Positions 44,770-61,942 of a stretch of DNA of 64,000 nt are shown one piece after another. A model generated the notes under the pieces. That model saw only the letters and a list, made by a program, of their open reading frames with translations. It searched no databases and was not told where the DNA came from. The stretch's first letter is position 1; each line of letters begins with the position of its first letter. The DNA is from Pseudoselenomonas ruminantium (GTDB lineage Bacteria; Bacillota; Negativicutes; Selenomonadales; Selenomonadaceae), in assembly GCA_015058655.1 (NCBI GenBank), contig SVBX01000011.1, positions 1 to 64,000 on the forward strand, written 5' to 3'. The position numbers and the translations under genes were made by a program.

Positions 44770-44824
44770 ACCTGCTTTTGTCTGATATATAGGGTAGAGG
44801 TAATCTTTTTTTATGAAAGCAGGT
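44770..44824 (+). promoter_or_regulatory. Recombinase promoter flanked by a 9-bp inverted repeat
   Basis: TTGTCT (44778-44783), 17-base spacer, TAATCT (44801-44806) form a promoter. ACCTGCTTT (44770-44778) and AAAGCAGGT (44816-44824) are exact inverted repeats around it, and the right arm covers the recombinase ribosome site (CAGGTG). This could be an operator, a hairpin that hides the ribosome site, or a chance match. Confidence 0.6.
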
Positions 44825-44831
44825 GACGATC

Positions 44832-45449
44832 ATGAGCGGAGCAGTATACGGTTATGTGCGTGTCAGCAGCATGGATCAGAAGGAGGACAGGCAGCTCAGG
44901 GCCATGCGTGAAAAGGGCGTGGCCGATAAGAACATCTATGTGGACAAAATCTCCGGCAAGGATTTCAACCGTCCCATGTATAGGAAGCTGATGAAGAAAG
45001 TACGCATGGGAGACTTGATCTATATCAAGAGCATAGACAGGCTGGGCCGCAACTATGAGGAGATTATCGAGCAGTGGCGTATCCTGACCAAGGAGAAGCA
45101 AGTGGACATTGCCGTGATAGATATGATGTCTCTGGATACCAGAGTGCATAAGAACCTTCTGGGGACTTTTGTAAGTGATGTCTTCCTCTATGTGCTTTCC
45201 TTCGTGGCAGAGAATGAGCGCATGAATATCAGGCAGCGCCAAAGGGAGGGAATCGAAGCAGCCAGGCTCAAGGGCGTGCATCTGGGGCGCCCTGCCAGAT
45301 CTCTGCCCCGGAATTTTGAGCATATAGCAGGCCTCTGGCTGGCACATGAGATTTCCGGCAAAGAAGGGGCAGCCACATGCGGTCTGCCCCTGTCCACCTT
45401 TTATAGAAAATGCAAAGAAATGCAAAAGAATCAGCCACCGCAAAAGTAG
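44832..45449 (+). CDS. Serine recombinase (resolvase/invertase type)
   Basis: 205 residues. The N-terminal catalytic domain has the nucleophile serine in YGYVRVSSMDQ (about S12), the active-site arginines in KSIDRLGRN, and GTFVSDVFLYVLSFVAENER leading into the long E helix. The C-terminal 50 residues hold a helix-turn-helix (ATCGLPLSTFYRKCKEM). Catalytic-then-HTH order is that of Tn3 resolvases and Hin/Pin invertases, not IS607 TnpA, which has its HTH first. The ATG at 44832 is chosen over GTG 44823, which lies in the ribosome site. It sits directly upstream of two 28-bp palindromes that are plausible crossover sites. Confidence 0.9.
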   Translation: MSGAVYGYVRVSSMDQKEDRQLRAMREKGVADKNIYVDKISGKDFNRPMYRKLMKKVRMGDLIYIKSIDRLGRNYEEIIEQWRILTKEKQVDIAVIDMMSLDTRVHKNLLGTFVSDVFLYVLSFVAENERMNIRQRQREGIEAARLKGVHLGRPARSLPRNFEHIAGLWLAHEISGKEGAATCGLPLSTFYRKCKEMQKNQPPQK

Positions 45450-45463
45450 TGGCTGATTCTTTT
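45424..45463 (+). terminator. Bidirectional terminator overlapping the recombinase stop
   Basis: AAAAGAATCAGCCAC (45424-45438) pairs perfectly with 45449-45463, loop CGCAAAAGTA; A-run and T-run on either side. The recombinase stop codon lies in the loop region, so its transcript is cut off before the downstream palindromes. Confidence 0.93.
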
Positions 45464-45485: not shown

Positions 45486-45513
45486 TATCTCAAAAGGTAT
45501 ACCTTATGGGATA
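45486..45513 (+). repeat. Candidate crossover site L (28-bp imperfect palindrome)
   Basis: Half-sites TATCTCAAAAGGTA and TACCTTATGGGATA are complementary at 12 of 14 positions, centred on a TA dinucleotide. Length and two-base centre match serine-recombinase crossover sites. The 20 bases from 45486 to 45505 recur exactly, inverted, at 45610-45629. Confidence 0.75.
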
Positions 45514-45556
45514 TGTCTTTTTAAAGTCAATAACAAAAGATTCGGAATATATTTTC

Positions 45557-45585
45557 TTGATTTTGCAGGGAGGAAATGATACACT
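45557..45585 (+). promoter_or_regulatory. Promoter inside the putative invertible segment
   Basis: TTGATT (45557-45562), 17-base spacer, TACACT (45580-45585), pointing at the TnpB-like gene. On the opposite strand TTGACT lies near site L, but without a clear -10. Inversion between the two palindromes would turn this promoter away from the gene. Confidence 0.55.
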
Positions 45586-45601
45586 ACTAGGAGAATATAT
45601 A

Positions 45602-45629
45602 TTTCTTAAAAGGTATACCTTTTGAGATA
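45602..45629 (+). repeat. Candidate crossover site R (28-bp imperfect palindrome)
   Basis: Half-sites TTTCTTAAAAGGTA and TACCTTTTGAGATA match at 12 of 14 positions around a central TA. The outer half is the exact inverse of the outer half of site L; the inner halves differ. Centre-to-centre distance between the two sites is 116 bp. Confidence 0.75.
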
Positions 45630-45665: not shown

Positions 45666-47060
45666 GTGAAAAAGACATCTGAAGAAATTATTACCAAAAC
45701 AGTTTGGCAGTACAGCAAGCCGTTGCCTTCGGAGACCTTGGCTTTCCTGCAGGGGATTGCGGAGGATTACGGCAAGGTCAAGAATTTCGTTTACGGCAGG
45801 TACTCCGGCATCAAGAATATGAACCGATTGGTGCCGGTTTACGATGTGCTGAATGAAATGAGGCATTGCGGCCTGCGGGCCCAGCTGAATTTGCCCGCGG
45901 CCTACTATGAGCTGGCGGTGTCGGAAGCTGTTACGGATATCCGTAGCATGTGGGGCATGCTGAAAAACAAGTTGCGTGACCTCATCAATGCCAACGAGAA
46001 CCTTTCGGCAGATGACCGCGCTTATCTGCGTACTGTTTTGAAGATAAACAGTGTATTTTCCGCCATCTTGAACAGGCAGGAGCATGAACTGCCCAGCAAA
46101 GTCGTGGGACTGGAAATAGATGCCAAGCGGCTGAACAATCTTATATGCCGTCTGGTGAGAAAACATTTGCAGCAACCCAAGACAAACAGCCAGGCAGGGT
46201 TCAAGGTCATGCCTGCAGGCTATCGCTACAAGGAGCAAGGCCTTTACCTGGTGAGCAGGCAGCCGAGGAAGCGGATTTGCATTCCCCTCAGGGACAGCAA
46301 CACTTCCAGCAGGCAGCTGCATATCGTCCTCAAAGGGGATATAGCAGTGATTGCCATGCCGGTGGATGTATGTGCCAGGAAGAGCCCGGATGCCCAGAAT
46401 ATCCTTTATGCCTACATAGGCTACAAGGATATGCTTACTCTGTCCAACGGGCATGTATACGGGGAGAACCTGAACAAACTGGTGACACCTGAGACAGAAA
46501 GGCTCTATGAGAAGAACAGGGAGCGCAGGAAGCAGTATGATGCCTATCGCCAAAGCAAAGAGAATGGGAATCTGAAAAAAGCAGAAAGCATCCTGGCTAA
46601 TAACCTGGGCAAGGAGAAATACCTCAGGATCAAGCAGCGGGAGAGGGAAAAGACGGCCAATTATATCAATGCCGAACTGAACCGCCTGCTGCGCGAGGAG
46701 AAGCCCTGCCGGATAGTGATAACCAAGCCCATCCTCAAGGGAGGCAAGAAGCTCTCCTATGCAGCTGCCAACAGGAGGCTCACCAGGAGCTTCAACGGCT
46801 ATATCCGTGAAAAGCTGGCTTACAAGTGCCGCCTTCATGGCATCGAGCTGGAGCAGATAAGCCCCTACGCCACAGCGTCCACCTGTTCAGGATGCGGCGG
46901 AGAGGGAAAGCGAGAGCAATACGACTTCATCTGCGAAAACTGCGGCCTCAAACTTCCCGCAGCCCTGAATACTGCCAGGAATATAGAAAAGCTGGCTGGA
47001 TTCAAGCCTTCCCCTTTGGGGAAGGGGGACCGCGAAGCGGTGGATGAGGTTGCGACATAA
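45666..47060 (+). CDS. TnpB-family protein with apparently inactivated RuvC site
   Basis: 464 residues. The N-terminal wedge/helical part has GKVKNFVYGRYSG and LPAAYYELAVSEAVTDIRSM. The RuvC-I region reads ILYAYIGYKDMLTLSNG, with Tyr250 where active TnpB has Asp. RuvC-II reads CRIVITKPILKGG, with Thr353 instead of Glu. RuvC-III reads LKLPAALNTARNI, with Ala433 instead of Asp. The zinc ribbon is kept (C407, C410, C424, C427: CSGC and CENC). All three catalytic acids thus seem lost in a full-length reading frame. The last 17 residues come from an R1 repeat. The GTG start lacks a strong ribosome site and is uncertain. Likely an RNA-guided DNA-binding protein without cleavage; this is inferred. 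Confidence 0.8.
   Translation: MKKTSEEIITKTVWQYSKPLPSETLAFLQGIAEDYGKVKNFVYGRYSGIKNMNRLVPVYDVLNEMRHCGLRAQLNLPAAYYELAVSEAVTDIRSMWGMLKNKLRDLINANENLSADDRAYLRTVLKINSVFSAILNRQEHELPSKVVGLEIDAKRLNNLICRLVRKHLQQPKTNSQAGFKVMPAGYRYKEQGLYLVSRQPRKRICIPLRDSNTSSRQLHIVLKGDIAVIAMPVDVCARKSPDAQNILYAYIGYKDMLTLSNGHVYGENLNKLVTPETERLYEKNRERRKQYDAYRQSKENGNLKKAESILANNLGKEKYLRIKQREREKTANYINAELNRLLREEKPCRIVITKPILKGGKKLSYAAANRRLTRSFNGYIREKLAYKCRLHGIELEQISPYATASTCSGCGGEGKREQYDFICENCGLKLPAALNTARNIEKLAGFKPSPLGKGDREAVDEVAT
47005..47050 (+). repeat. Palindromic repeat family R1, half copy at the TnpB 3' end
   Basis: AGCCTTCCCCTTTGGGGAAGG, then ACCGC-GAA-GCGGT and GGATGAGGT. Only the left half is present; it is read in frame as the C-terminal tail of the TnpB-like protein. 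Confidence 0.88.
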
Positions 47061-47300
47061 GCGTAAATTTTAACGAATGCAATTAAAGATTAACCCTGCC
47101 CAACTTGCGGATAAACAGCCAATACCTGTTTCAGCGATCAGCACTGCAAAGCGGACAGTTAATAAAGCCCCGCAAGGGCGAAGCAAAACACGGCCTTATC
47201 TGAGGGAACATCCTTTTCTTGTAGGCCAAGACCGTGGCTTTACACGGAGCGAAGCAGGCGGCTCGCCGTCAGCAGGCACAGGGGTGCCAAGATAATTCAT
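47061..47300 (+). ncRNA. Candidate guide/omega-like RNA region downstream of TnpB
   Basis: No supported gene in about 400 bases to 47466. Several helices are visible: CCCCGCAAGGGC (near 47168), CACGGCCT pairing with AGGCC plus CCGTG (47190-47232), GGCGGCTCGCC (near 47258), and GGCAC-AGGG-GTGCC (47275-47288). Active TnpB and TnpB-like repressors take a guide RNA encoded at or just past the 3' end of their gene; this structured GC-rich tract, ending in AT-rich sequence at about 47290, fits that position. The role and both ends are inferred. Confidence 0.4.
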
Positions 47301-47466
47301 ATGATATTTTTATTTGAAAGAGGGGGGACATACTCTCCAAGGGAAGCTGCATGAGAAAATGGGGAGATGATAGCCCTGTGCAAAGAACTCCTGCAGCCTA
47401 TTTTATTTGTCAAAACTAAAAGAAAGATATAAAAGTGTTGGGATTCTATCTGAGAGGGTGAAGCAT

Positions 47467-48174
47467 ATGGCGCTAAAAAATAGACTCTTATCCAAACTGA
47501 AATCCACCTATGTAACCATGAATATGGCAGCCTCTGCTCACCCTCAGAAGATGCATCCCGTGTATCGCAATCTGGTGGAGGCCAGGACCCTGTGCCAGCA
47601 GGGGATGACGGAAAGCAACTTTGCCAAGTACGAAGAAATCTATGACGGCCTCATCATGGCTATCAAGCAGGTGCTCGATGGAGCGGCTGGTAGCGACACG
47701 CAGGAAATCGTGAATCTCTGCAAGGAGCTCTTGCAGCATATTGTGATGGAAACCACCAAAGAAAAGAATTTCAAAAAAGAGATGGTGTTCCTGCCGTATA
47801 AGGCCAGCATGTGGGATTCGCTGGAGAGTGTATGGCGGGCAGCTTATGAAGATAAAGATAACTGCTTGGCTTATGTGATTCCTATTCCTTATTGCGACAG
47901 GAATCCGGATGGGACAGCTAAAGAGTGGCATTGCGAGAGGGATTTGTTCCCTAAGGATGTGCCCACTTTGGATTGGCAGGAAGTGGATTTGAAGACCATG
48001 CATCCTGATGTGATTTTTTTCCATTACCCGTATGACGACTGCAATCAATTTAACCGCAATTCAATACAATTACGAAAATTAGGTGCATGCCCGAAACCCC
48101 TTGAAACAAGAGGCTTCGGGGATTCAGCTAATTTTGAATCTGACACATTGTATCAAATAAGCAACCAATTATGA
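47467..48174 (+). pseudogene. Truncated copy of the CDP-glycerol-transferase-like gene
   Basis: 235 codons from an ATG behind GAGAGGGTG. The N-terminal 195 residues match the gene at 48430: residues from KKEMVFLPYKASMWDSLESV to KTMHPDVI are identical between them, while the first 100 residues differ moderately. After HYPYDDCN the reading frame diverges into unrelated sequence and stops. So it is a duplicate that lost about 600 residues. The near-identical middle next to diverged ends suggests gene conversion. It could still make a short protein. Confidence 0.75.
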
Positions 48175-48190
48175 CAGTGCAGACCAGGCT

Positions 48191-48283
48191 TGGGTGCAAA
48201 TGGGTGCATTTTGGGTGCAACGGGTGCATCTTGGGTGCAAATTGGTGCACCCGGGTGCAAATGGGTGCATTTGGGTGCACCCA
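48191..48283 (+). repeat. Tandem array of a 10-bp GGGTGCA unit
   Basis: Nine copies of a (G/T)GGTGC core begin at 48192, 48202, 48213, 48222, 48233, 48243, 48253, 48263 and 48273, a mean step of about 10.1 bp. The unit ends vary (AAAT, ATTT, AACG, ATCT). It starts 17 bases after the truncated gene and ends before the R1 half copy. Confidence 0.9.
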
Positions 48284-48327: not shown

Positions 48328-48378
48328 TAGCCTTCCCCTATGGGGAAGGTGGCAGACCGAAGGTCTGACGGATGAGGT
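48328..48378 (+). repeat. Palindromic repeat family R1, half copy before the glycan locus
   Basis: TAGCCTTCCCC-TAT-GGGGAAGG, then AGACC-GAA-GGTCT and GGATGAGGT, with the second half missing. It lies about 50 bases upstream of the next gene start. Confidence 0.85.
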
Positions 48379-48429: not shown

Positions 48430-50916
48430 ATGGCCATCAAAAGCAGGCTCCTATCTAAGTTGAAATTTATATACATGACCACAACCATGGCAGCCACCGC
48501 TCATCCACAGAAGCTGCGCCCTGTGCTTCACAATCTGGAGGAGGCCAGGGAACTCTGTCAGCAGGGACTGACCGAGAGCAATTATGCCAAATACGGTGAA
48601 GTGTATGATGGCGTTATCATGGCTATCAAGCAGATACTCTCCGGGGAAGCCGGAAAAGATGCTGGGGAGATTGTGGGGCTCTGCAGGGAACTCCTGGAGC
48701 ATATTATGGCCGAGACTGGCAAGGAGGAACACTTCAAAAAAGAGATGGTGTTCTTGCCGTATAAGGCCAGCATGTGGGATTCGCTGGAAAGTGTATGGCG
48801 GGCAGCGTATGAGGATAAGGATAACTGCCTTGCTTATGTGATACCTATTCCTTATTGCGACAGGAATCCGGATGGAACTGCTAAAGAGTGGCACTGCGAG
48901 AGGGATTTGTTCCCCAAGGATGTGCCTACTTTGGACTGGCAGGAAGTAGATCTGAAGACCATGCACCCAGACGTGATATGCTACCACTACCCGTATGATA
49001 ACTGCAACAGAGTTACCAGCCAAAGTGAAGAATACTACAGTAGTAATTTGAAGGAATGTGCGGATAAGCTGGTTTATATTCCTTATTTTGTGCTTCCAGA
49101 GTTGGAGTTTGACTATGATGACCCAGATAAGATAGATGAAATACGGGAAAATGAGGATGATTTTGCAAATGTCATACTCGAACCAGGGGTGACAAATGCA
49201 GATTATGTCATTGTTCAATCTGAGGCTATTAAAAAGATTTATGTCAATGTTTTGAGTAGATATACTTATGCTACAAATGATTACTGGGAGAAACATGTTT
49301 TAGGATTGGGTTCACCGAAACTTGATAAGGTATCCGTAAGCACAAAAGAGGAATATGATTTACCAGAGCGATGGAAAGAGATCATAGCTGGCAAGAGGAC
49401 TGTTCTTTATAATACTGGTTTATCAACCATGCTTAAGTATACAAAGTCTTATCTTGAGAAGGTACGTTCAGTATTAAGTGCTTTCAAGTCTCAAAAAGAT
49501 TTGGCACTTTGGTGGCGTCCACATCCATTGTTGCGTTCTACATTTCATTCTATGCACCCTGAGCTTTTGGCAGAGTATGAAAGCATAGTCAATGCTTATA
49601 TTCGAGAAAGCTGGGGAATATATGATGATACAGTTGAACTGGATAGGGCTGTAACTTATACGGATGCATTGTATGGGGATTGGAGTAGCGTAGAACAATT
49701 GTACCGAGAGGTTGATAAACCAGTATTTAGGCAAGAAATTGAATATAAAATCCCTGAAATAGAGTTTGATGAATATTTGACTTTTACAGATGCCATGTGG
49801 GATGGTGATGAGCTGATTTTTTCAGCATGGAATGCTAATGGAATTTTTTCTTTTAATGTCAGGACAGAGCGGACAGAATTATTGAAGTTTCTGCCAGCTA
49901 AATTGAATATAAAGTCTTTATTTTGCAGAATGGAGAAGGTTAACTCCAAACTATACTTTATTCCTACCAATGAAGAGTTCATACTGATTTTTGATAAGGA
50001 AAAAGAAGTGTGGGAGAAAGTATTTATTGATGATGGAAAACTAGGAGACTCGAGGGCAAGATTTACTGATGCATATAGGTTTGGTAATACAATATGGTTG
50101 AAACCTTATTTCTCGCATGCAATAGTATCTTATTCGATAGATGATGGGGAGTTGACATATTACTCTGAGTGGTATAAGGAATTGGAACCGTATATCGATG
50201 AAGATAATAATTCGCCAAAGTTTGGGGCGGGGTCAAAGTCAGATGATGCTTTCTATTTTCCATTAGTTCAAGCAAATAAGGTTGTTATGTTTGATATTTT
50301 GTCAAGAGCACATAGAATCATAAGCATTGGCAATGATGATGATTCTATTCTGAATGTTCGGTATTACGATAATAAACTCTACTGTTATACCACTCATGAT
50401 GATTTACTTATTTATAATCTGGGGACGAATGAAATTAATAGAAAGAATAGTGTCTTCCATCAGCTGGTAGAGTCGGTGGGAATGGTAGTAAAGAACGGTT
50501 TTATGTGGATTTTTTCGTGCAGGAAGGATATGTATGCAAAAGTCAGCATAAGCGATTTTTCTACAGAAATTATAAAAGATTACTGTGATGGAATGGATAT
50601 TGGCTATCCTAATATTGTAATAAAGGATAATATGATATATCTTTATCCTAATAAAGCTGAGTATATATTTGTAGTAGATAATATCAGCAATGATGTAAAA
50701 AAGATTACTGTTCCTATGCCAAAAGGGTATGGAATTGAGTGGGAGAAGAAGATGGTCGAGCAGTTCCCTTTGAGAGAAATGAATGAATTGAAATTACTGA
50801 AGAAAATGATTAAAGGGCATAAAGACGATTTAAAATATGATGATATAAAGAATAATGCTGGAAACAATATTTACAAAGAAGTGTTGTGCCATATGCAAAC
50901 AGGGAGGAGTGCATAG
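48430..50916 (+). CDS. CDP-glycerol glycerophosphotransferase-like protein with C-terminal propeller-like region
   Basis: 828 residues, no signal peptide. The N-terminal ~430 residues resemble the GT-B-type glycerophosphotransferase group of Firmicutes: FLPYKASMWDSLESVWRAA, AYVIPIPYCDRNPDG, KLVYIPYFVLPEL, then KRTVLYNTGLSTMLKY and LWWRPHPLLRSTFHSM. Residues ~440-800 hold repeated beta-strand patterns (LTFTDAMWDGDELIFSAWNA, ARFTDAYRFGNTIWLKPYFS) of the kind seen in six- or seven-bladed propellers. It probably builds or modifies a surface polymer, but donor and acceptor are unknown. The second half is AT-rich. Its stop overlaps the next GTG start. Confidence 0.65.
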   Translation: MAIKSRLLSKLKFIYMTTTMAATAHPQKLRPVLHNLEEARELCQQGLTESNYAKYGEVYDGVIMAIKQILSGEAGKDAGEIVGLCRELLEHIMAETGKEEHFKKEMVFLPYKASMWDSLESVWRAAYEDKDNCLAYVIPIPYCDRNPDGTAKEWHCERDLFPKDVPTLDWQEVDLKTMHPDVICYHYPYDNCNRVTSQSEEYYSSNLKECADKLVYIPYFVLPELEFDYDDPDKIDEIRENEDDFANVILEPGVTNADYVIVQSEAIKKIYVNVLSRYTYATNDYWEKHVLGLGSPKLDKVSVSTKEEYDLPERWKEIIAGKRTVLYNTGLSTMLKYTKSYLEKVRSVLSAFKSQKDLALWWRPHPLLRSTFHSMHPELLAEYESIVNAYIRESWGIYDDTVELDRAVTYTDALYGDWSSVEQLYREVDKPVFRQEIEYKIPEIEFDEYLTFTDAMWDGDELIFSAWNANGIFSFNVRTERTELLKFLPAKLNIKSLFCRMEKVNSKLYFIPTNEEFILIFDKEKEVWEKVFIDDGKLGDSRARFTDAYRFGNTIWLKPYFSHAIVSYSIDDGELTYYSEWYKELEPYIDEDNNSPKFGAGSKSDDAFYFPLVQANKVVMFDILSRAHRIISIGNDDDSILNVRYYDNKLYCYTTHDDLLIYNLGTNEINRKNSVFHQLVESVGMVVKNGFMWIFSCRKDMYAKVSISDFSTEIIKDYCDGMDIGYPNIVIKDNMIYLYPNKAEYIFVVDNISNDVKKITVPMPKGYGIEWEKKMVEQFPLREMNELKLLKKMIKGHKDDLKYDDIKNNAGNNIYKEVLCHMQTGRSA

Positions 50917-51835: not shown

Positions 51836-52060
51836 ATGAGCGAGAAAGATTTTATTGAAAAAATGGTTGAACTTATGGACACGGAGCAGGAAGTTGCACT
51901 GACAACAAAGCTGGAGGATATAGAGGAATGGGATTCCCTGAGTTATGTTGCCTTTCTAGCAATGTGTAATGGCATTTCTTCTAGAAGAATAATGCCGAAG
52001 GAAGTGAAGGCGGCAACCACAATCAATGATTTATATGAGCTTATAAAAGGTGAAGCGTGA
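51836..52060 (+). CDS. Acyl carrier protein, first copy
   Basis: 74 residues. The acidic four-helix pattern and the phosphopantetheine serine in EEWDSLSYVAFLAM (about S37) mark it as an ACP. The ATG at 51836 follows AAGGAG; an open frame from 51740 adds a non-ACP extension. The stop overlaps the next start (TGATG), so it is coupled to its KASIII partner. Confidence 0.85.
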   Translation: MSEKDFIEKMVELMDTEQEVALTTKLEDIEEWDSLSYVAFLAMCNGISSRRIMPKEVKAATTINDLYELIKGEA

Positions 52061-53106
52061 TGATTGTAAGGCTTAATTATTTGCACATCGTTGCTCTTAC
52101 TGTTACAGTCTCTAGCAATATTATTCCAGTGTCTGAACGATGTGCAGAGCTTTTTTCGCCCAATAAAATTAGACGCTTAGTGAAACAAACAGGTGTAGAA
52201 TCGTTGAGTATAGTACGGGGGGGCGTTTGTGCATCTGATATGTGCTATGATGCCGCAGAGCGTTTGTTTGCAGCTGGTGAGGCTAAACGTGAAGAAATAG
52301 GTGCCATTATTTTCCTTTCACAGACACCTGACTATATAAATCCGGCTACTAGCTATTTGTTGCAGGCAAGATTAGATTTATCAGATGATGTTATAGCTTT
52401 GGATGTTAACCTGGGATGTTCAGGATATGTTTATGGCCTTTACTTGGCAGCAACTATGCTTGCAAATATGCCAGAAGGACGGAAAGTTCTCCTTTGTTGC
52501 GGCGACAGTGGCAGCAGCCTGATACATCCTCAAGATACATCGACAATGCCCATAATGGGAGACGCAGGTGCAGCTACTATCATTGACAAGGGGATGCAGT
52601 CGAAAAAGAATGCATATTTTGCTTTCAACAGTTTTGGCAAGTTGGCAAACGCTCTTAAGATACCGCGAGGTGGAGCCAGAGCTGTCAACTTGACGGAAAA
52701 TGAACATCTTAGCCTGGACAGGGACAACTATACTGTCATGGATGGCATGGCTATAATGGATTTCTCTTTGACAGAAGCACCCCGGAATATACGCGAATTA
52801 CTGACTGAGGCAAAAGCAGATGTTGATGAAATAGATTTAGCGGTCTTTCACCAGGCAAATAAAATAATAGTGCGTTCACTTGGTGAAGAGCTTGGCTTTC
52901 CAGAGGAGAAAGTTCCATGGGGAGTGGCACGTATTGGCAATTCTAATTCATCATCTATACCTGCTTGTCTGGCAGAGATGAAAAGGCAGGGCGTATATCA
53001 TGGCTATGGACAAGTATTGCTGTCAGGTTTTGGCGTAGGCTTATCTGTTGCCTCAACGTTGCTGAATATTTCGGATTTACATATCCTGGAGACAAAAGAA
53101 ATATGA
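52060..53106 (+). CDS. 3-oxoacyl-ACP synthase III-like enzyme, first copy
   Basis: 348 residues of the KASIII/FabH fold. The catalytic triad is complete: Cys120 (DVNLGCSGYVYG), His264 (VFHQANK) and Asn294 (RIGNSNSSS). FabH starts chains by condensing an acyl-CoA with malonyl-ACP; relatives in glycan and natural-product loci use other acyl donors or transfer acyl groups. Start ATG 52060 overlaps the ACP stop. Its stop overlaps the SDR gene. Confidence 0.88.
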   Translation: MIVRLNYLHIVALTVTVSSNIIPVSERCAELFSPNKIRRLVKQTGVESLSIVRGGVCASDMCYDAAERLFAAGEAKREEIGAIIFLSQTPDYINPATSYLLQARLDLSDDVIALDVNLGCSGYVYGLYLAATMLANMPEGRKVLLCCGDSGSSLIHPQDTSTMPIMGDAGAATIIDKGMQSKKNAYFAFNSFGKLANALKIPRGGARAVNLTENEHLSLDRDNYTVMDGMAIMDFSLTEAPRNIRELLTEAKADVDEIDLAVFHQANKIIVRSLGEELGFPEEKVPWGVARIGNSNSSSIPACLAEMKRQGVYHGYGQVLLSGFGVGLSVASTLLNISDLHILETKEI

Positions 53107-53870
53107 GCGAAGTAACATTTGATTTTGAAGGACGTAATTTTGCAGTTATAGGAGCTTCTTCTGGTATGGGAAGGCAAGTAGCGGAGGAACTTGCACTTGC
53201 TGGTGCTAATGTCTTGGCTGTCGGCAGAGATAAGACAAGGCTGCTGGAGTTGCAGAGTTTGGAGCCTGAGCGTATTAGTTGTGTACAACTAGATGTAATA
53301 AGTGCAGGCAAATCGGAATGGATTGAGGTGCTTGATGCATTTGTGGCAGCCAATGGGAAACTGAATGGCGGTGTTTACGCGGCCGGAATTACTGCATTGA
53401 CTCCTTTACGATTATTTGATGATGAACTGGCGCAGCGCATTCTCTCTACTTCATTGTGGGGATGGATTCATTTTTTGCAATATGTCAGCAAAAAAAGATT
53501 TTCTATGCCGGGGGCATCTTATGTTGTATTTTCTTCTGCTGGTGCAGACTCAGCTGAAAGTGGCATGACAGCTTATGATGCAGCTAAGGCAGGGGTCAGG
53601 GCTGCCATGAAAGTGGCGGCATTGGAATTAAGTAAAAAAAGTCATAGGGTAAATAGTATTAGTCCTGGCTGGGTTGGGACTAGGATGACCCAGCAATATG
53701 ATAATGAGGCAGGAGCGAGTAAGCGTGTTTTTGACCGTCATCTGCTTGGTCTTGGGAAGCCGGAGGATGTCAGTGGCATGGTACTTTTTCTTTTAAGTGA
53801 TCGTGCTAGATGGATAACGGGAGCAGATATTCTGGTTGATGGGGGATATTTGCGTGGAGCTTACAGATAA
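53103..53870 (+). CDS. Short-chain dehydrogenase/reductase, first copy (FabG-like)
   Basis: 255 residues. Rossmann motif VIGASSGMGRQVAEE (about 15-29), catalytic serine in YVVFSSAG and the YxxxK pair in TAYDAAKAG, plus the C-terminal ITGADILVDGGYLRG. It probably reduces a 3-oxoacyl-ACP made by the KASIII. Coupled by a 4-base overlap. Confidence 0.88.
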   Translation: MSEVTFDFEGRNFAVIGASSGMGRQVAEELALAGANVLAVGRDKTRLLELQSLEPERISCVQLDVISAGKSEWIEVLDAFVAANGKLNGGVYAAGITALTPLRLFDDELAQRILSTSLWGWIHFLQYVSKKRFSMPGASYVVFSSAGADSAESGMTAYDAAKAGVRAAMKVAALELSKKSHRVNSISPGWVGTRMTQQYDNEAGASKRVFDRHLLGLGKPEDVSGMVLFLLSDRARWITGADILVDGGYLRGAYR

Positions 53871-53905
53871 GGAGGTGGAGTATGCTATAAAGCATACGAT
53901 TCAAT

Positions 53906-54766
53906 ATGGATGATTTTAGCAATGTAATAGCGACTATACAAAAGGGCTTTGGTAAAGAGTTAATAAATAAAATATTTGGTGCTGTTTCCACAGTTTATAA
54001 TGACAGTGATTATATCAATACGAAACGCGCTAAGCATCAGATTATGAAAGAGATTTCAGAAGACGCGAGATGGAGTGCACTTGAGAGATATGCCATTGTA
54101 GACAATATTGATACCATTTCCAAACAGTTTGCGAATGTACTGGATATTTGTAAACGGGCTGGAGAAATAATGAACCAATCTGATAGAGCGAAGGATTACA
54201 ATAACCTAGATGAAGAATGGGTTGCAAAATTCAAGGAATGTTCGAAGAATGCGTCCAGCGATAATATACGGCAGATGTGGGCAAAATTATTAGCTGAAAG
54301 GGTGGAGAATAACAAAGGGATTACGAAGTCACTTTTGAACACATTATCTTTGCTGGAAAGCTATCAAGCAAAATGCTTTACAACAGTGTCTGCGTTTCGC
54401 TTAATATTGAATGATGGCGATGAACAAAGAGTGTGTGTTATTTTTCCACATGACATTATAAACAAGTATTTCGATTATGTTACATTTGACACGCTGGTTG
54501 AATTAGACAATTTGGGGTTAATAAGGTATTCTCACATAGGGAGAGCCATTATAAAAAGAAAAATGATTCACGGCATATGGGAAAACAGAAAAATTTCAAT
54601 AGCAAATAAAGATGACATACCTGAAATCGTGCTAGGTAAAATAAATTTAACACATTCAGGTGAGACACTAGCCTCCATTATTGCTGAAACAGTAGATGAA
54701 AAAATATTTGTAGATGTGATAGGAGAATATTGCCAGAAATGTCATTATGACTTCCAGATAGAATGA
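53906..54766 (+). CDS. DUF2806-like protein
   Basis: 286 residues, soluble. DEEWVAKFKECSKNASSDNI then RQMWAKLLAERVENNKGITK is the hallmark stretch of DUF2806 proteins (SS..I..LWA-LL). The C-terminal half is less conserved. The function of this family is unknown to me. It interrupts the enzyme genes of a biosynthetic operon and overlaps the next frame only slightly. The gene is AT-rich. It may be a regulator, a defence-type passenger or part of the pathway. Confidence 0.6.
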   Translation: MDDFSNVIATIQKGFGKELINKIFGAVSTVYNDSDYINTKRAKHQIMKEISEDARWSALERYAIVDNIDTISKQFANVLDICKRAGEIMNQSDRAKDYNNLDEEWVAKFKECSKNASSDNIRQMWAKLLAERVENNKGITKSLLNTLSLLESYQAKCFTTVSAFRLILNDGDEQRVCVIFPHDIINKYFDYVTFDTLVELDNLGLIRYSHIGRAIIKRKMIHGIWENRKISIANKDDIPEIVLGKINLTHSGETLASIIAETVDEKIFVDVIGEYCQKCHYDFQIE

Positions 54767-54783
54767 TGCCTAGGAGTAATGAT

Positions 54784-55854
54784 ATGATTTCCAGTGTGTT
54801 TAGAAATATTAAGATTGCAGGCATTGCAAGCGTGGCTCCAGTGAAAGAGGTGGATTGCGAATTATATTGTACTAGATTTGGTGAAAAGAATGTCAAGAGA
54901 ATAATGAAGATGACTGGTGTTAGAAAGATTCATCGTGCTATAGACGAGCAAACCTCAGGTGATTTGGCTTATGAGGCTGCTGCAAGATTGCTTAGACAGA
55001 AGAATGTAAAACCTGACGAAATAGGCGCAATTGTTTTTTTGACTACATGTCATGATTATATAGTACCTTCTACAGCTGGTGTTATACAAAAACGGTTGGG
55101 GGTCACTCAGGATAGCTTGGTATTTGATATAAATCTTGGGTGTTCTGCCTATGTATATGGTTTGGAAACCATAGCTGCTTTAATGAGTGGCAGCAATATA
55201 AAAAAAGCACTATTGCTGACGGCTGAGACTAATAGCAAGCTCCTTTCTCCAGAGGACAACTCTGTTATGTTGTTTGGAGATGCTGGTTCTGCCACTTTAT
55301 TAGAAAAAAAAGATGATGCAGGGACTATGAGGGTTGCACTAAAAAGCGATGGTAACAGATATGATGCAATTTATGTGCGTGGTGGGGGATTCAGGCATAG
55401 GTTTGTTAGCGAGGAAAGGGTAGTGCAGAGTGATGGTGTATGCAGATCTGATTATGATTTGCATATGGATGGCGGTGAAGTGTTCAATTTTACCATGACT
55501 GATGTGGTGGGGCTGTTTAGCGAATTTATGGATGAGAATCGCTTATCTATTGAAGACTTCGATTCGTTGGTCTTACATCAAGCGAGCCACTTTGTTCTTA
55601 AGCATTTGGCATCTTCGCTAAAAATGCCCATGGATAAAGTCCCTTTAAGCTTAGATGAATTTGGTAATACAGGTGCAGCTACAATTCCGCTTACCTTATG
55701 CAAAGCGTATGGATATGATGACTCCAGAATAACTAAAAGAATCTTGGCATCTGGTTTTGGTGTAGGGTTGTCCTGGGGGATAGCTGATTTTCTGGTAAGC
55801 CCTAACGATATTATGCCCATAGAATATACGGATGAATATTATAAGGAAGGTTGA
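54784..55854 (+). CDS. 3-oxoacyl-ACP synthase III-like enzyme, second copy
   Basis: 356 residues. Complete triad: Cys120 (DINLGCSAYVYG), His265 (VLHQASH) and Asn295 (EFGNTGAAT). It is related to, but clearly diverged from, the first copy, including an insertion near 185-230 (GGFRHRFVSEERVV). The ATG at 54784 has AGGAG seven bases upstream; an ATG at 54763 is less well placed. Two copies suggest different acyl donors or two successive condensations. Confidence 0.88.
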   Translation: MISSVFRNIKIAGIASVAPVKEVDCELYCTRFGEKNVKRIMKMTGVRKIHRAIDEQTSGDLAYEAAARLLRQKNVKPDEIGAIVFLTTCHDYIVPSTAGVIQKRLGVTQDSLVFDINLGCSAYVYGLETIAALMSGSNIKKALLLTAETNSKLLSPEDNSVMLFGDAGSATLLEKKDDAGTMRVALKSDGNRYDAIYVRGGGFRHRFVSEERVVQSDGVCRSDYDLHMDGGEVFNFTMTDVVGLFSEFMDENRLSIEDFDSLVLHQASHFVLKHLASSLKMPMDKVPLSLDEFGNTGAATIPLTLCKAYGYDDSRITKRILASGFGVGLSWGIADFLVSPNDIMPIEYTDEYYKEG

Positions 55855-55864
55855 TTTGGTTATT

Positions 55865-56116
55865 ATGACAAATGTGGAAGTATATACGGATATATTCAAG
55901 CGTGTTTTTGAGATAAGTGACAATACTGGTAAAATTGAAACCTTGAAATATCAGGAAATACCAGAGTGGGATTCGGTAGGGCACATGGAACTTATCTCTG
56001 AGATTGAAGATGCTTTCGATATAGAGTTTGAGACAGAGGACATTATCGAATTCTCCAGCTATCAGAAAGGCCAGGAAATACTGGCTGCTAATTATGGCAT
56101 AGATTTTACGGCTTAA
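55865..56116 (+). CDS. Acyl carrier protein, second copy
   Basis: 83 residues with the serine in PEWDSVGHMELISEIEDAFD and a normal acidic helix III (ETEDIIEFSSYQKGQEIL). It is closer to standard ACPs than the first copy. The start is uncertain: an AAGGAAGG lies about 15 bases upstream of the ATG at 55865. Confidence 0.87.
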   Translation: MTNVEVYTDIFKRVFEISDNTGKIETLKYQEIPEWDSVGHMELISEIEDAFDIEFETEDIIEFSSYQKGQEILAANYGIDFTA

Positions 56117-56140
56117 GTTGCAGGGAGAGAAGGTATTCTT

Positions 56141-56593
56141 ATGCACTTATCAAGTGATGAAGTGAAGCAGTATCATACCATGCGGGGACCGTTTTTGCTG
56201 ATAGATGAAATTGAGTATGTGGAGCCAGGTGTAGAGGCAGTAGGCAAAAAAAAACTTCCTGAAGATGAATGGTTCTTCATAAATCATTTTCCTGGTAATC
56301 CTGTTATGCCCGGGGTCCTGCAGCTTGAAGCTATGAATCAAACAGGGGCCATTATCATCAAGACGTTGCCAGAATATAGAGATCGCACTATTTATTTTGT
56401 CAGTGTGAAAAACTTGAAAAGCATCACGGCTGTAAGACCAGGCAAGGATTTAATGCTGAAAGTCAAACTGGAAAGCCTCAAGCACGGCATTGCTAAGTTC
56501 CATGGCGAGGCGTATGTAGGGGAGCAAATCGTATCTCGTGCAGATTTCGTAATGGGCGTATCAGGTGAATTCCTGAGTCCTATAGTTGGATGA
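56141..56593 (+). CDS. FabZ-like 3-hydroxyacyl-ACP dehydratase
   Basis: 150 residues, hot-dog fold. The active-site stretch NHFPGNPVMPGVLQLEAMNQ (about 48-67) has both the catalytic histidine and the glutamate in the following helix. With KASIII and FabG-like partners it could complete a short elongation cycle; no enoyl reductase is present locally, so products may stay unsaturated or use the host FabI/FabK. Confidence 0.9.
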   Translation: MHLSSDEVKQYHTMRGPFLLIDEIEYVEPGVEAVGKKKLPEDEWFFINHFPGNPVMPGVLQLEAMNQTGAIIIKTLPEYRDRTIYFVSVKNLKSITAVRPGKDLMLKVKLESLKHGIAKFHGEAYVGEQIVSRADFVMGVSGEFLSPIVG

Positions 56594-56610
56594 TGGTAGG
56601 GGGGTTGCAA

Positions 56611-57351
56611 ATGGCAGAGGGTAAGAATGCTGTTGTGACAGGAAGCAATCGCGGTATAGGCAGAGCAATAGTCAGGAAGCTGGCGCAGGCTGGCTATAAT
56701 GTATGGGCCTGTGCCAGGCAGGAGAGTGAGGCGTTTGAGGCTGAGTGCGCGGCTATTGCTTCTGAGTTCTCTGTCTGGGTGCGCCCCGTGTATTTTGATT
56801 TATCTGATGAAGATGCAGTCAAGGCAGGGGCAAAAAGCATCACAAGGGAAAAATTATTCATTGACGTGTTGGTGAACAACGCAGGCGTAATTGGCCAGGC
56901 CGGTCTGTTTACCATGACCAGAATAGAAGACATACGAGCTCAGTTCGATATTAACTTTTTCAATCAGCTCATCTTTATGCAAGTTATAGCGAAGCATATG
57001 ATGAAGCGTAAACAGGGCAGTATCGTTAATATGGCATCTATATCTGCATTGGATGGCTATGGCATCCAGTTGGGGTATGTGTCCAGCAAGGCGGCAATGG
57101 TCGGTGCAACCAAGAGATTGGCACGTGAACTTGCTCCCTTCCATATACGTGTAAATGCTGTGGCACCGGGGATGGTGAATACAGATATGGCAGCATTGAT
57201 GACAGAAGAGCAGAAGGCGGAGGTGTTGGAGCGCATCATTATGAAACGTCCGGCAGAGACGGAGGAAATCGCAGATGCTGTTCTGTTTCTAGCCTCGGAG
57301 CAAAGCCGGTATATCACTGGACAAATCGTGCGTGTGGATGGGGGGATGTGA
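56611..57351 (+). CDS. Short-chain dehydrogenase/reductase, second copy (FabG-like)
   Basis: 246 residues. AVVTGSNRGIGRAIVRKLAQ, the NNAG motif (VLVNNAGVIGQAG), catalytic serine in VNMASISAL, the YxxxK in GYVSSKAAM and a C-terminal YITGQIVRVDGGM are standard for FabG. The ATG at 56611 follows GGGGGG. The next gene starts just after its stop. Confidence 0.9.
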   Translation: MAEGKNAVVTGSNRGIGRAIVRKLAQAGYNVWACARQESEAFEAECAAIASEFSVWVRPVYFDLSDEDAVKAGAKSITREKLFIDVLVNNAGVIGQAGLFTMTRIEDIRAQFDINFFNQLIFMQVIAKHMMKRKQGSIVNMASISALDGYGIQLGYVSSKAAMVGATKRLARELAPFHIRVNAVAPGMVNTDMAALMTEEQKAEVLERIIMKRPAETEEIADAVLFLASEQSRYITGQIVRVDGGM

Positions 57352-57353
57352 TT

Positions 57354-58211
57354 ATGCAGGCTGACGGATTGGCAGAGAAATATACAGAAATAGAAAACCA
57401 TGCCCGAAATATGCGTAAATTAGGGCTTGATATGGCACTGAATGCAGGAGATTCCGCCGCGCATTTTGGTGGAGGCATGTCCTTGGTTGATATATTGGCA
57501 GTCCTCTATTTTGGTGTAATGAATACAAAGGATAAAGGCATGAAAGATCCCCAGCGTGACCGCTTTATCCTGAGCAAGGGTCATGGTGTTTTGGGCTATT
57601 ATGCGGCATTGGTGGAGGCTGGATTGGCGCCGATGTCAGCTATTGACACCTTTGAGCACGATGAAGGGATTTTCTTTGGGCATCCTGTCATCAATAGAGA
57701 GGCAGGCATTGAGTTCAGCAATGGCAGCCTTGGCATGGGGTTAGCATTGGGAATTGGCGTGGCTATTGCAAATCGCAAACGAGGCTATGGCAATAAAGTT
57801 TATGTTCTGCTTGGAGATGGTGAATGCAATGAAGGCTCTGTATGGGAAGCCTTTATGGCGGCCCCTCAGTATAAGCTGAAAAATTTGGTAGCTATCATAG
57901 ATAAAAATACATATCAGCTGGGCGGGGAAAATGCTGAAATCATGTCTATTGATGACATAGCAAATAAGCTAAGGGCTTTCAACTGGGAAGTGCGTGAATG
58001 CGATGGGCATGATGTGCCGGAATTATATAACGATATGACAAAAACATATGAGGAAGAGCGTCCCTTGGCTATCGTTGCTCATACTGTTAAAGGAAAGGGC
58101 TTTGCGTTTGCGGAGGGAAATAACAGCTGGCATCACGCTGTTATGACACAAAAGCAATATGAGCTGGCTGTGCAGGAATTGAATAAGTGTCAGGCAGGTG
58201 AGGCTAAATGA
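57354..58211 (+). CDS. Transketolase, N-terminal subunit
   Basis: 285 residues, the thiamine-diphosphate PP half: RDRFILSKGHGVLGYYAAL and the ThDP motif LLGDGECNEGSVWEA (GDG-x-xx-NE). It pairs with the next gene to form a split transketolase. Transfers two-carbon ketol units from a ketose phosphate to an aldehyde acceptor. An in-frame GTG at 57348 is an alternative start. Confidence 0.93.
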   Translation: MQADGLAEKYTEIENHARNMRKLGLDMALNAGDSAAHFGGGMSLVDILAVLYFGVMNTKDKGMKDPQRDRFILSKGHGVLGYYAALVEAGLAPMSAIDTFEHDEGIFFGHPVINREAGIEFSNGSLGMGLALGIGVAIANRKRGYGNKVYVLLGDGECNEGSVWEAFMAAPQYKLKNLVAIIDKNTYQLGGENAEIMSIDDIANKLRAFNWEVRECDGHDVPELYNDMTKTYEEERPLAIVAHTVKGKGFAFAEGNNSWHHAVMTQKQYELAVQELNKCQAGEAK

Positions 58212-59173
58212 TGGAGTATAGCAGCAAGAATGCTCGCAAATGGTCGCGTATGGGTGAGCGCCCAGTGTTTGGCCTGACTGTCCTTGAGATGGCCAAGGAG
58301 CATAAGGATATAATTGCCTTGGCGGCTGATGTTGCCAGTTCTGCTGGTTTGGAACGTATGAAGATGACGCTTCCGGAACAGTTCCTTGATACGGGTATTG
58401 CTGAGCAAAATATGATGGGGATTGCTGCGGGGCTGGCTAGCGAGGGATATCGGGTTGTGACTACGACATTCGCGCCGTTTCAGTCTATGCGTTGCTTGGA
58501 ACAGATTCGCGTGAATCTGGGCTATATGGGCGCAAAGGTGTGCATGGCAGGTCTGGCCAGTGGTTTTGCCTATGGGGAGTTGGGCAACACACATTGCTGC
58601 TTTGAGGATGTGGCCATTATGCGAGCAATTCCCAATATAGCGGTGGTTTCCCCAGCAGATTGCATGGAGGTGGCCAAAACGGTGGAGGCGGCTCTGCAAC
58701 ATGACACATCTGTCTATATCCGTTTGATGGGTAAGAAGGATGTGCCTGTGGTCTATGCTGAAGATTATGATTTTCAGCTGGGCAAAGCAATCACCTTGCG
58801 CGAAGGCGTTGATGTCGCTATCGTAGCGACGGGTACGATGGTCGCTAGGTCTTTGCAGGCAGCTGATATCCTGGATCAGCAGGGGATTTCTGCCACCGTC
58901 GTGGATATGCATACCATCAAGCCGCTGGATACAGGTTGCCTGGACAAGTTGTGCGAGCACAATCTGTTAGTGACCGTAGAGGAGCATAATGTCTGCGGTG
59001 GGCTTGGGAGTGCAGTGGCAGAGTATCTGGCTCCGAAAAAAGAGCGTCCGCCACATCTGTTGATTGGTGTAGAGGACTTTTTCCCTCATGCTGGCAGTTA
59101 CGAATATGTCCTGCAGCAGTGTGGCTTGACTGCGGAACAGATTGCGGCTCGCATTCGTGATCTTTGCCGTTGA
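58208..59173 (+). CDS. Transketolase, C-terminal subunit
   Basis: 321 residues, the pyrimidine-binding and C-terminal domains. The catalytic glutamate lies in DTGIAEQNMMGIAAGLA; TTTFAPFQSMRCLEQIR and the ELGNTHCCFEDVAIMRAIPN loop are typical. It overlaps the N-terminal subunit gene by 4 bases. A dedicated transketolase next to an aldehyde-forming LuxC-like enzyme hints that the aldehyde could be the ketol acceptor (inference). Confidence 0.93.
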   Translation: MMEYSSKNARKWSRMGERPVFGLTVLEMAKEHKDIIALAADVASSAGLERMKMTLPEQFLDTGIAEQNMMGIAAGLASEGYRVVTTTFAPFQSMRCLEQIRVNLGYMGAKVCMAGLASGFAYGELGNTHCCFEDVAIMRAIPNIAVVSPADCMEVAKTVEAALQHDTSVYIRLMGKKDVPVVYAEDYDFQLGKAITLREGVDVAIVATGTMVARSLQAADILDQQGISATVVDMHTIKPLDTGCLDKLCEHNLLVTVEEHNVCGGLGSAVAEYLAPKKERPPHLLIGVEDFFPHAGSYEYVLQQCGLTAEQIAARIRDLCR

Positions 59174-59233
59174 AGGCTATGCAATATATACATGGGAGGA
59201 TACGCTATTCTCCTATAGAAAGCAGTGATACTC

Positions 59234-60430
59234 ATGCAGCAAGAAACGCAGAAAATTGAATACCTGATTGGCAGCGAGAAGATGTTGGCAGATATGCCTT
59301 TGTTGCCGTCATTGCCCATTTTTTCTGACCTTGCACTGTCTTTTTTGGAAGGGCTTTCCAAGCGGCTGCTGCATAGCAAGGAGGCCAAGGCCTATGGCGA
59401 TGTGGTGGCTTATGGTTTCTGGGTGCGCCGCGCATATATGGGCAAGGTACGCAAGCGTTATGCCGGTGAGGCAGAACGCCGCCTGGGACGCGGTGTTGCT
59501 TTCCATATAGCTCCTTCCAATATCCCCGTTCAGTTTGCGGTTTCACTGACTTATGCTTTACTGGCAGGGAATGCTTCGGTAGTGCGGGTGTCCGGCAAGG
59601 AATTCCCGCAGGTTGATATCATTTGCGAGACGATATCGACAGTCATTCGCGAGGAATGCCCTGATGTTGCACCTTATATCTGCGTTGTTCGCTATGGGCA
59701 TGATGATTTGGTGACGCAAAAACTGTCCGCAATTTGCGATATCCGCATGATTTGGGGGGGGGACCGCACAATCGAGGCCATCCGCCGGGCACAGGTGGGG
59801 CCGCGCTGTCTTGATCTTGGCTTTGCGGACAGGTATTCCCTGGCAGTGTTCGATGCGGAGGCCTATCTGGAGATGGACAGGGCAACCGTGGCGCATGCTT
59901 TCTACAATGATACGTACTACGTAGACCAGAATGCCTGCAGCTCGCCCAGGCTGATTGTCTGGACAGGCAACAGGATTGCAGAAGCGCAAGAGGCTTTCTG
60001 GGGGGCGCTGGCCCCGCTCGTGGCAGAAAGATATGAGATGAGCGATATCGCTGCCTCGGAAAAATTGCTGCACACGACGCTATGTGCTGCAAAGCATCCG
60101 GGCGTAAGGGAGATTAAGCATGACAATCTGGTGGTCCGCCTGGAATTGCCGGAGATTTATGCAGATGTGATGGCTTATGAGGGCAATTGTGGCTATTTCC
60201 TGGAGTACAGCACACGGGATTTACAGGAAATTTTACCTTTGCTACGCAAGAAATGCCAGACCATTACATATCTGGGAACATTGGCTGAAAGACTGAGGGC
60301 AATGGTTGTCGAGCATGGCGTTAGGGGCGTTGATAGGATAGTACCGGTGGGACGGGGCATGGATATGGTCTTTGTTTGGGACGGCATTGACTTGCCGTTG
60401 GCTTTGTCCAGGATCGTCAGCGATGTGTGA
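59234..60430 (+). CDS. LuxC-like acyl-CoA/acyl-protein reductase
   Basis: 398 residues of the aldehyde-dehydrogenase fold, LuxC group (usual LuxC is about 480, so this is a short form). GRGVAFHIAPSNIPVQFAVS (about 86-105) is the nucleotide/acyl motif, MIWGGDRTI (about 172-180) follows, and the nucleophile is Cys235 in VDQNACSSPRL. It would reduce an activated acyl group to an aldehyde with NAD(P)H. ATG 59234 chosen; GTG 59225 is possible. Confidence 0.82.
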   Translation: MQQETQKIEYLIGSEKMLADMPLLPSLPIFSDLALSFLEGLSKRLLHSKEAKAYGDVVAYGFWVRRAYMGKVRKRYAGEAERRLGRGVAFHIAPSNIPVQFAVSLTYALLAGNASVVRVSGKEFPQVDIICETISTVIREECPDVAPYICVVRYGHDDLVTQKLSAICDIRMIWGGDRTIEAIRRAQVGPRCLDLGFADRYSLAVFDAEAYLEMDRATVAHAFYNDTYYVDQNACSSPRLIVWTGNRIAEAQEAFWGALAPLVAERYEMSDIAASEKLLHTTLCAAKHPGVREIKHDNLVVRLELPEIYADVMAYEGNCGYFLEYSTRDLQEILPLLRKKCQTITYLGTLAERLRAMVVEHGVRGVDRIVPVGRGMDMVFVWDGIDLPLALSRIVSDV

Positions 60431-60514
60431 AGGCATGGTTGTGTTTGGTTTATGTGTGTATCCAGGCTTAGGTTCACATAGGTAAGCATATTGCAACAGA
60501 GTGGAGGCAGATTG

Positions 60515-61921
60515 ATGTTTTTGGAACTGGAAAAGCACAGGGAAAGCACAGCATTGCTAACAGAGAACAATCACCTGTTATATGGGGAGTTGTCGGATTT
60601 GTCAAGGCAGATCTATCAGTCCGTAGGCTACAGGTCGCTGGTTTTCCATTTTTGCACAAACACGTCTGCCTCGATAGCTGGATACGTGGGTTTCATCAAT
60701 GGGCGGGCTGTGCCAGTGATGCTGGATGCAAAGCTGGATGCTGAACTTGCAGCGCATCTGGTAGAGCTTTATCAACCGAAGTTCCTGTGGCTGCCGGAAG
60801 CGAGGGCTAGAGAATTCTCTGGGAATGATGTTCTGCATCAAGGAGAATATGTGTTGCTTTCCCGTGAAGTGGAGTCGCCTTTCTCGCTCCATGATGATCT
60901 TGCCTTGCTGATGACAACGTCAGGTTCTACCGGCTCGCCGAAGTTGGTGAGGCAAAGCTATCGTAATCTCCAGGCCAATACGCGCTCCATCATCGAGTAT
61001 CTTGGAATAGATGCGCAGGAACGGGCCGTTACGAACTTGCCCATGCATTATGTGTATGGCCTCTCCATCATCAATAGTCACCTGCAGGTAGGAGCGTCGT
61101 TGGTAGTGACAGAGCGGACTCTATTTGACCGCGAGTTCTGGCATTTGATGCGTGAGCAGGAGGTCACGAGCTTTGCCGGAGTGCCGTACACATACGCGAT
61201 GCTAGCGAAGTTGCGTTTCTTCCGCATGAAGCTGCCTCATTTAAAGACGCTGACCCAAGCTGGGGGGAAGCTGGATACGGAGCTGCATCAGGCATTTGCT
61301 GACTGGGCCAAGACGCAGGGCAAACGTTTTGTGGTGATGTATGGTGCAGCCGAGGCCACGGCACGCATGGGCTATTTGCCTCCTGAACTGTCATTGGATA
61401 AAGCAGGTTCTATGGGGAAGGCAATTCCTGGAGGTCGGTTCGAGCTTGTGGACGAGTCTGGCAATCTCATCAGCGAGGTGGGGGCAACGGGCGAGTTGGT
61501 CTACTATGGTGAGAATGTGACCATGGGCTATGCAGAGAGTGGTGCTGATTTGGCGAGGGGAGATGAGCGGCAGGGACGCTATGAGACTGGTGATATGGCG
61601 AGATGTGATGCTGATGGAATATATACCATTGTGGGGCGCAGGAAACGCTTCCTGAAGATTTTCGGCAAGCGCACGAACTTAGAGGAAGTCGAGCATTTGC
61701 TTCGTCAGCATTTTTCTGTGGTGGAGTTGGCATGTGCAGGGCAGGATGATTTGATGCGTATATACACGTCCGAGAGAGGCATTGCTGATGAAATCGTGCC
61801 GTATCTCGCGATTAAACTTGGGCTACACCCATCGGCTTTTCGTGTACATCTAGTGCATGAGATTCCGAAGAACGCGGCAGGTAAAGTTGCCTATGGGGAA
61901 CTGGAGCACATTGGCGTATGA
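60515..61921 (+). CDS. AMP-dependent acyl ligase (ANL superfamily)
   Basis: 468 residues. The adenylation motifs are complete: TTSGSTGSPKLVRQS (P-loop-like A3), YGAAEATARMGY (A5), GELVYYGENVTMGY, RYETGDMA (A7) and the catalytic lysine in PKNAAGKVAYGEL (A10). It activates a carboxylic acid as an acyl adenylate for transfer to CoA or an ACP. The ATG at 60515 follows TGGAGG. Substrate unknown. Confidence 0.88.
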   Translation: MFLELEKHRESTALLTENNHLLYGELSDLSRQIYQSVGYRSLVFHFCTNTSASIAGYVGFINGRAVPVMLDAKLDAELAAHLVELYQPKFLWLPEARAREFSGNDVLHQGEYVLLSREVESPFSLHDDLALLMTTSGSTGSPKLVRQSYRNLQANTRSIIEYLGIDAQERAVTNLPMHYVYGLSIINSHLQVGASLVVTERTLFDREFWHLMREQEVTSFAGVPYTYAMLAKLRFFRMKLPHLKTLTQAGGKLDTELHQAFADWAKTQGKRFVVMYGAAEATARMGYLPPELSLDKAGSMGKAIPGGRFELVDESGNLISEVGATGELVYYGENVTMGYAESGADLARGDERQGRYETGDMARCDADGIYTIVGRRKRFLKIFGKRTNLEEVEHLLRQHFSVVELACAGQDDLMRIYTSERGIADEIVPYLAIKLGLHPSAFRVHLVHEIPKNAAGKVAYGELEHIGV

Positions 61922-61942
61922 GTTTTGACCGGAGGGTAGATA

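Follow-up and report, generated by a model that had tools for sequence, protein, structure and literature searches.

The stretch of DNA analysed here, referred to below as the window, comprises 64,000 nucleotides (nt) of Pseudoselenomonas ruminantium (contig SVBX01000011.1 of assembly GCA_015058655.1, positions 1 to 64,000). Within it, a serine recombinase gene, a pair of inverted palindromes, a gene for a nuclease-dead TnpB resembling TldR proteins, a guide-RNA scaffold and a glycan gene follow one another on the forward strand. An earlier note on this DNA, made from the sequence alone, had proposed that the palindromes flank a promoter inverted by the recombinase, and that this would make an RNA-guided regulator phase variable. 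We examined this arrangement in the window and in related genomes.

The recombinase gene (44835..45449, + strand, with an alternative GTG start at 44823) encodes a Sin/Gin-like resolvase-invertase of 204 amino acids (aa). The resolvase/invertase identity given in the earlier note is confirmed by a match to Pfam Resolvase (E-value 5e-28). The best solved relatives are Sin (PDB, E-value 1e-29), gamma-delta resolvase and Gin, and the alignment reaches query residue 193. The reading frame is intact, the catalytic motifs RVSS and SIDRLGRN are conserved, and the protein combines an N-terminal catalytic domain carrying these motifs with a C-terminal DNA-binding region, as is typical of the serine DNA invertase/resolvase family. 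A hairpin with a perfect 15-bp stem, terminator-like on the minus strand, is located 3' of the gene (45424..45463).

The two putative recombinase sites are 28-bp imperfect palindromes at 45486..45513 (left, + strand) and 45602..45629 (right, - strand). As described earlier, they are inverted relative to each other and 116 bp apart, a distance that holds both centre to centre and in direct-repeat register, and the 20 nt at the outer end of one (45486-45505) are repeated exactly, in inverted form, at the outer end of the other (45610-45629). An inverted-repeat scan of the window returned the pair as 45486-45521/45594-45629, with 81% complementarity over 36 nt. The 2-bp centre, previously read as TA, is in fact AT in both sites (GGTA/TACC, at 45499/45500 and 45615/45616). 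Because AT is self-complementary, the core alone leaves the direction of recombination unfixed. When up to one mismatch was allowed, the core AAAAGGTATACCTT was confined to this pair in the 3.1-Mb genome, except for one near-palindrome with 1 mismatch on contig C46, which lies within an open reading frame (ORF) and was dismissed as a chance match. The predicted invertible segment of 116 bp, bounded by the presumed crossover points (45500..45615), holds a predicted promoter, TTGATT-17-TACACT (45557-45562/45580-45585, + strand), that points at the dead tnpB. The locus therefore has the anatomy of an inverton, i.e., inverted repeats flanking a promoter with a recombinase gene adjacent.

The tnpB-like gene (45666..47060, + strand) encodes a protein of 464 aa that matches Pfam Cas12f1-like_TNB and falls below the cut-off of the guided_TnpB model. 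In an alignment to active TnpB (8iaz), the RuvC residues D/E/D are replaced by Y/T/P, and the acids are likewise absent in the relatives of the protein. The dead RuvC site noted earlier is thus real, and the protein must have been dead long before the window locus formed. All four zinc-ribbon cysteines are kept, and they are invariant across 14 relatives. An AlphaFold model of the protein (mean pLDDT 82, pTM 0.53) gave Cas12f, Fanzor and TnpB as top Foldseek matches. The last ~16 residues are read from a REP-like repeat, CCTTCCCC...GGGGAAGG, at 47003-47060, which recurs near 48333.

An omega-RNA-like guide-RNA scaffold lies 3' of the gene (47188..47305, + strand). Across the 14 aligned loci, 50 columns are invariant and there are three stems; changes on both sides back 9 of 20 pairs, and the covariance model matches the window at an E-value of 2e-25. 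This model located one real copy in the window genome. Where the sequence extended far enough, most relatives also had the scaffold, ending ...CTAATnCnTATGAT, 3' of the gene. No family was found for it in Rfam. The presumed guide (47306..47325, + strand; its 3' limit is uncertain) directly follows the scaffold. At L030, L034 and L035, which are nearly identical, the scaffold is directly followed by a variable 13-nt block between constant flanks, which fits the expectation for a guide. An inactivated RuvC site and a retained adjacent guide RNA, two marks of TldR proteins, occur together here. Searches for the dead TnpB found none in viral contigs and only distant TnpBs in plasmids. At L014/L169, a second, distinct dead-TnpB-like gene stands in tandem after the first. 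It is cut by the contig end, and the part that can be seen is 43% identical to the window gene; a fragment similar to this second gene occurs at L019, on another contig of that genome.

Homologues of the recombinase were present in 58 of 201 related genomes. Strong inverted repeats occurred just 3' of 15 of these 58 loci, compared with 1 of 580 shuffles, and most were GTATAC/GTACAC palindromes about 100-200 bp apart. The genes that follow such sites encode flagellin, FlgE, sugar transferase, MBOAT and HsdM proteins, and exopolysaccharide loci are also represented. Some loci (L041, L078, L092, L110) carry non-palindromic GT/AC cores as inverted repeats. Between two species of the window's own genus (L124 and L127), a 152-bp segment is 91% identical and lies in opposite orientations. 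An apparent inversion between L121 and L122 in BLAST proved to be a partial secondary match in collinear, nearly identical sequence and was not counted. The same recombinase family precedes a gene that we read as AlbA-2-like at L096, L097 and L100, and the type I methylase gene hsdM at L103; these contexts suggest phase-variable defence genes.

Inverted repeats are also a feature of the dead-TnpB family as a whole. They were strong in 23 of 32 upstream regions of dead tnpB genes; the figure was 4 of 51 for control windows and 0 of 160 for shuffles. The arm nearer to the gene lies about 40-210 bp 5' of it. In most cases the gene is preceded by a phage-integrase-type tyrosine recombinase (Pfam E-value 5e-30), often within the inverting segment. 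Serine-type sites were found in the window and in L037-L041. At L041, the order of serine recombinase, site, promoter and dead tnpB is identical to that in the window; the available DNA of L037-L040 revealed no serine recombinase.

Both orientations of the segment are seen among these relatives. The L037 segment is inverted relative to L041 (score 65 in reverse and 46.5 forward, with a shuffle maximum of 53.5), and on the L040 contig the segment is present in each orientation, on either side of an N; L039 in the same genome has one of the two orientations. Among tyrosine-type loci, the L034 segment, whose promoter TTGACA-17-TATAAT faces tnpB, runs opposite to that of L029 and L030. L028 is likewise inverted with respect to L025, L026, L027, L032 and L033, over about 1.2 kb that includes the recombinase gene. 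A fully supported split in the tree separates the window from L037-L041, which makes it probable that the serine switch was gained at least twice in the dead-TnpB family. The genomes of L030, L034 and L035 hold one or two extra dead-tnpB loci (L163-L166) of another subclade, with the same layout of recombinase, scaffold and glycan gene, which implies that several such switches coexist per cell.

An inverton controlling the TldR-like gene is, in our judgement, the best explanation of the window locus, and we hold it with good though incomplete confidence. The upstream serine recombinase would recombine the two inverted GGTATACC palindromes and flip the promoter that they enclose. As the segment now lies (ON), transcription from the promoter would cover the dead tnpB, the guide RNA and perhaps also the glycan gene that follows; in the flipped segment (OFF), the promoter would be directed back toward the recombinase. 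When ON, the dead TnpB would bind the guide RNA and, in the manner of TldR proteins, repress a promoter or gene that matches the guide. Phase-variable RNA-guided repression is the likely function. The mechanism proposed in the earlier note (a serine recombinase, inverted sites, a promoter segment and a dead TnpB, ON in the assembly) is well supported by the link between recombinase and sites, by the relatives' two orientations and by the family-wide invertons; flipping in this strain, its ON/OFF effect and the repression of a guide-matched target are inferred.

Several observations weigh against this interpretation. The promoter that had been placed between the sites was located as described, and its hexamer layout recurs as TTGATT-17-TAgAaT in two distant relatives, L041 (ON) and L037 (OFF), but its -10 element TACACT is poor and a consensus scan leaves it uncalled, below the cut-off. 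Outside the hexamers, similarity of the window segment to L041 and L037 is not above that of shuffles (p 0.15 and 0.06). The self-complementary AT core would also allow deletion through direct-repeat alignment, and the species is known in one orientation only, from one assembly. Finally, a guide target was not found in the organism's own genome, where a search with 18 nt and up to 3 mismatches gave weak AT-rich matches in numbers near those of a reversed-pattern control. A 9-nt match, TTTTATTTG, upstream of a paralogous glycan gene on contig C19 was within chance by our estimate. The guides of L164 and L024 gave no convincing match in their own genomes, and guide matches within 31 linked glycan genes were at the level of shuffled guides. 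Since published TldR guides function with seeds as short as 6 nt, a missing target is not strong evidence against function.

The single known orientation and the missing target would also suit a fossil switch, in which the recombinase or the guide has become non-functional and the promoter is locked ON; the termination of the tnpB frame within the REP-like repeat and the truncated glycan gene nearby point the same way. We regard this as unlikely, given the intact frame and catalytic motifs of the recombinase, 20-nt arms that are still exact though decay would erode them, and a scaffold that still matches its family model so closely. Somewhat more doubtful is the possibility that the palindromes are recombinase binding sites for res-type resolution of dimers, or for autoregulation, and not an invertible pair. 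The presence of Sin and gamma-delta resolvases among the closest solved structures, the self-complementary core and a spacing that would correspond to about 11 helical turns are all consistent with it. However, the non-palindromic GT/AC cores at L041, L078, L092 and L110 are arranged as inverted repeats, related segments occur in both orientations, and these segments sit in promoter regions of diverse genes of the phase-variation type. Very improbable is control of the dead tnpB by a separate local repressor (TetR/MarR-like) that uses the palindromes as its operators and has nothing to do with the recombinase. Many operators are short dyads, as GGTATACC is, and the sites flank the promoter, but they are absent elsewhere in the genome, no other regulator gene is adjacent, and the site type follows the recombinase family across many unrelated genes.

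With regard to known systems, the proposed invertible promoter of a TldR-like gene is closest to loci in which hin genes and ~120-bp invertons lie upstream of csrA-tldR-fliC (Walker et al. 2026, PMC13418256; May 2026). The combination of an inverton with a nuclease-dead TnpB, previously thought undescribed, has therefore been reported, though for another TldR association. Both types of locus have a serine invertase gene directly upstream, a promoter inverton of about 120 bp and a dead TnpB with a guide RNA, and both occur in gut Firmicutes. The window clade differs in that it has a linked glycan gene and lacks csrA and flagellin genes: no CsrA or flagellin motif was found in the window or in the dead-TnpB loci examined. 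In addition, the promoter here is sigma-70-like, not FliA-type, and the recombinase of most relatives is of the tyrosine type, its gene often lying within the inverting segment.

The protein shares with TldR proteins the loss of the RuvC acids, the retained zinc ribbon and guide-RNA scaffold, and a non-transposon neighbour gene. The recombinase architecture, the inverted sites with a 2-bp centre and the promoter between them are as in Hin/Gin invertases and phase-variable invertible promoters, whereas the AT centre here is self-complementary and the controlled gene is predicted to be an RNA-guided regulator. A serine recombinase gene beside a tnpB-type gene is also found in IS607 (serine transposase and TnpB). 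Membership in IS607 was rejected, as the catalytic domain is N-terminal, unlike in IS607 TnpA with its N-terminal DNA-binding domain, and the IS607 model scored 28.8 bits against a cut-off of 110; most relatives of the window locus, moreover, carry a tyrosine recombinase instead. Capsule loci of Bacteroides have invertible promoters and the regulators UpxY and UpxZ, an antiterminator and its inhibitor. They offer an analogy only, in that an invertible promoter, a trans-acting regulator and surface-glycan genes form one unit, but the regulator here would act by RNA-guided DNA binding. Dead TnpBs linked to glycan genes or tyrosine recombinases were not mentioned in the searchable literature, although the two main TldR/TnpB classification papers lie outside its reach and earlier notice is possible.

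The linked glycan gene (48430..50916, + strand) has a weak match to CDP-glycerol glycerophosphotransferase (PF04464, E-value 2e-4), and its homologue at L028 is borderline (22.6 bits against a cut-off of 22.1). Members of this conserved gene family adjoin dead tnpB genes in Lachnospiraceae as well as in the taxonomic family of the window, and paralogues occur elsewhere in the window genome. Since a comparable switch accompanies most relatives of the dead tnpB, in gut-type bacteria, RNA-guided control of surface-sugar genes may be switched on and off at random, and it is plausible that the guide represses a competing locus. As a broader and quite tentative proposal, the dead-TnpB clade, which spans Lachnospiraceae, other Clostridia and the window's family, could be devoted to phase-variable surface-glycan loci: recombination would pick the expressed glycan locus together with an RNA-guided repressor, the guide would silence a competing locus, and the tyrosine and serine enzymes would each have been recruited to this switch on their own. 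More generally, the window locus would show that inversion upstream of a dead TnpB is a recurrent design and not an oddity of one flagellin-linked clade, reached with two unrelated recombinase classes and tied here to glycan rather than flagellin genes. Common gut bacteria would then combine random phase variation with RNA-guided repression that is programmable, and dead-TnpB loci would offer a naturally occurring set of repressors that can be switched and whose guides are visible.

Between the guide and the full glycan gene lies a truncated copy of the latter (47467..48174, + strand), 79% identical to the full copy over residues 1-199. Around 47467-48282, tandem TGGGTGCA-type repeats come after this copy of ~199 aa, and the full copy lies beyond them. 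The same layout, without tnpB, occurs on contig C19 of the same genome (L161), and similar repeats are found at L168; the arrangement may be a trace left by gene shuffling or a place where such shuffling occurs. Further downstream, at 52057-63049, our reading of the ORFs gives ketoacyl synthase III, reductases, transketolase halves and LuxC/LuxE-like proteins, which look like an acyl/sugar biosynthesis cluster.
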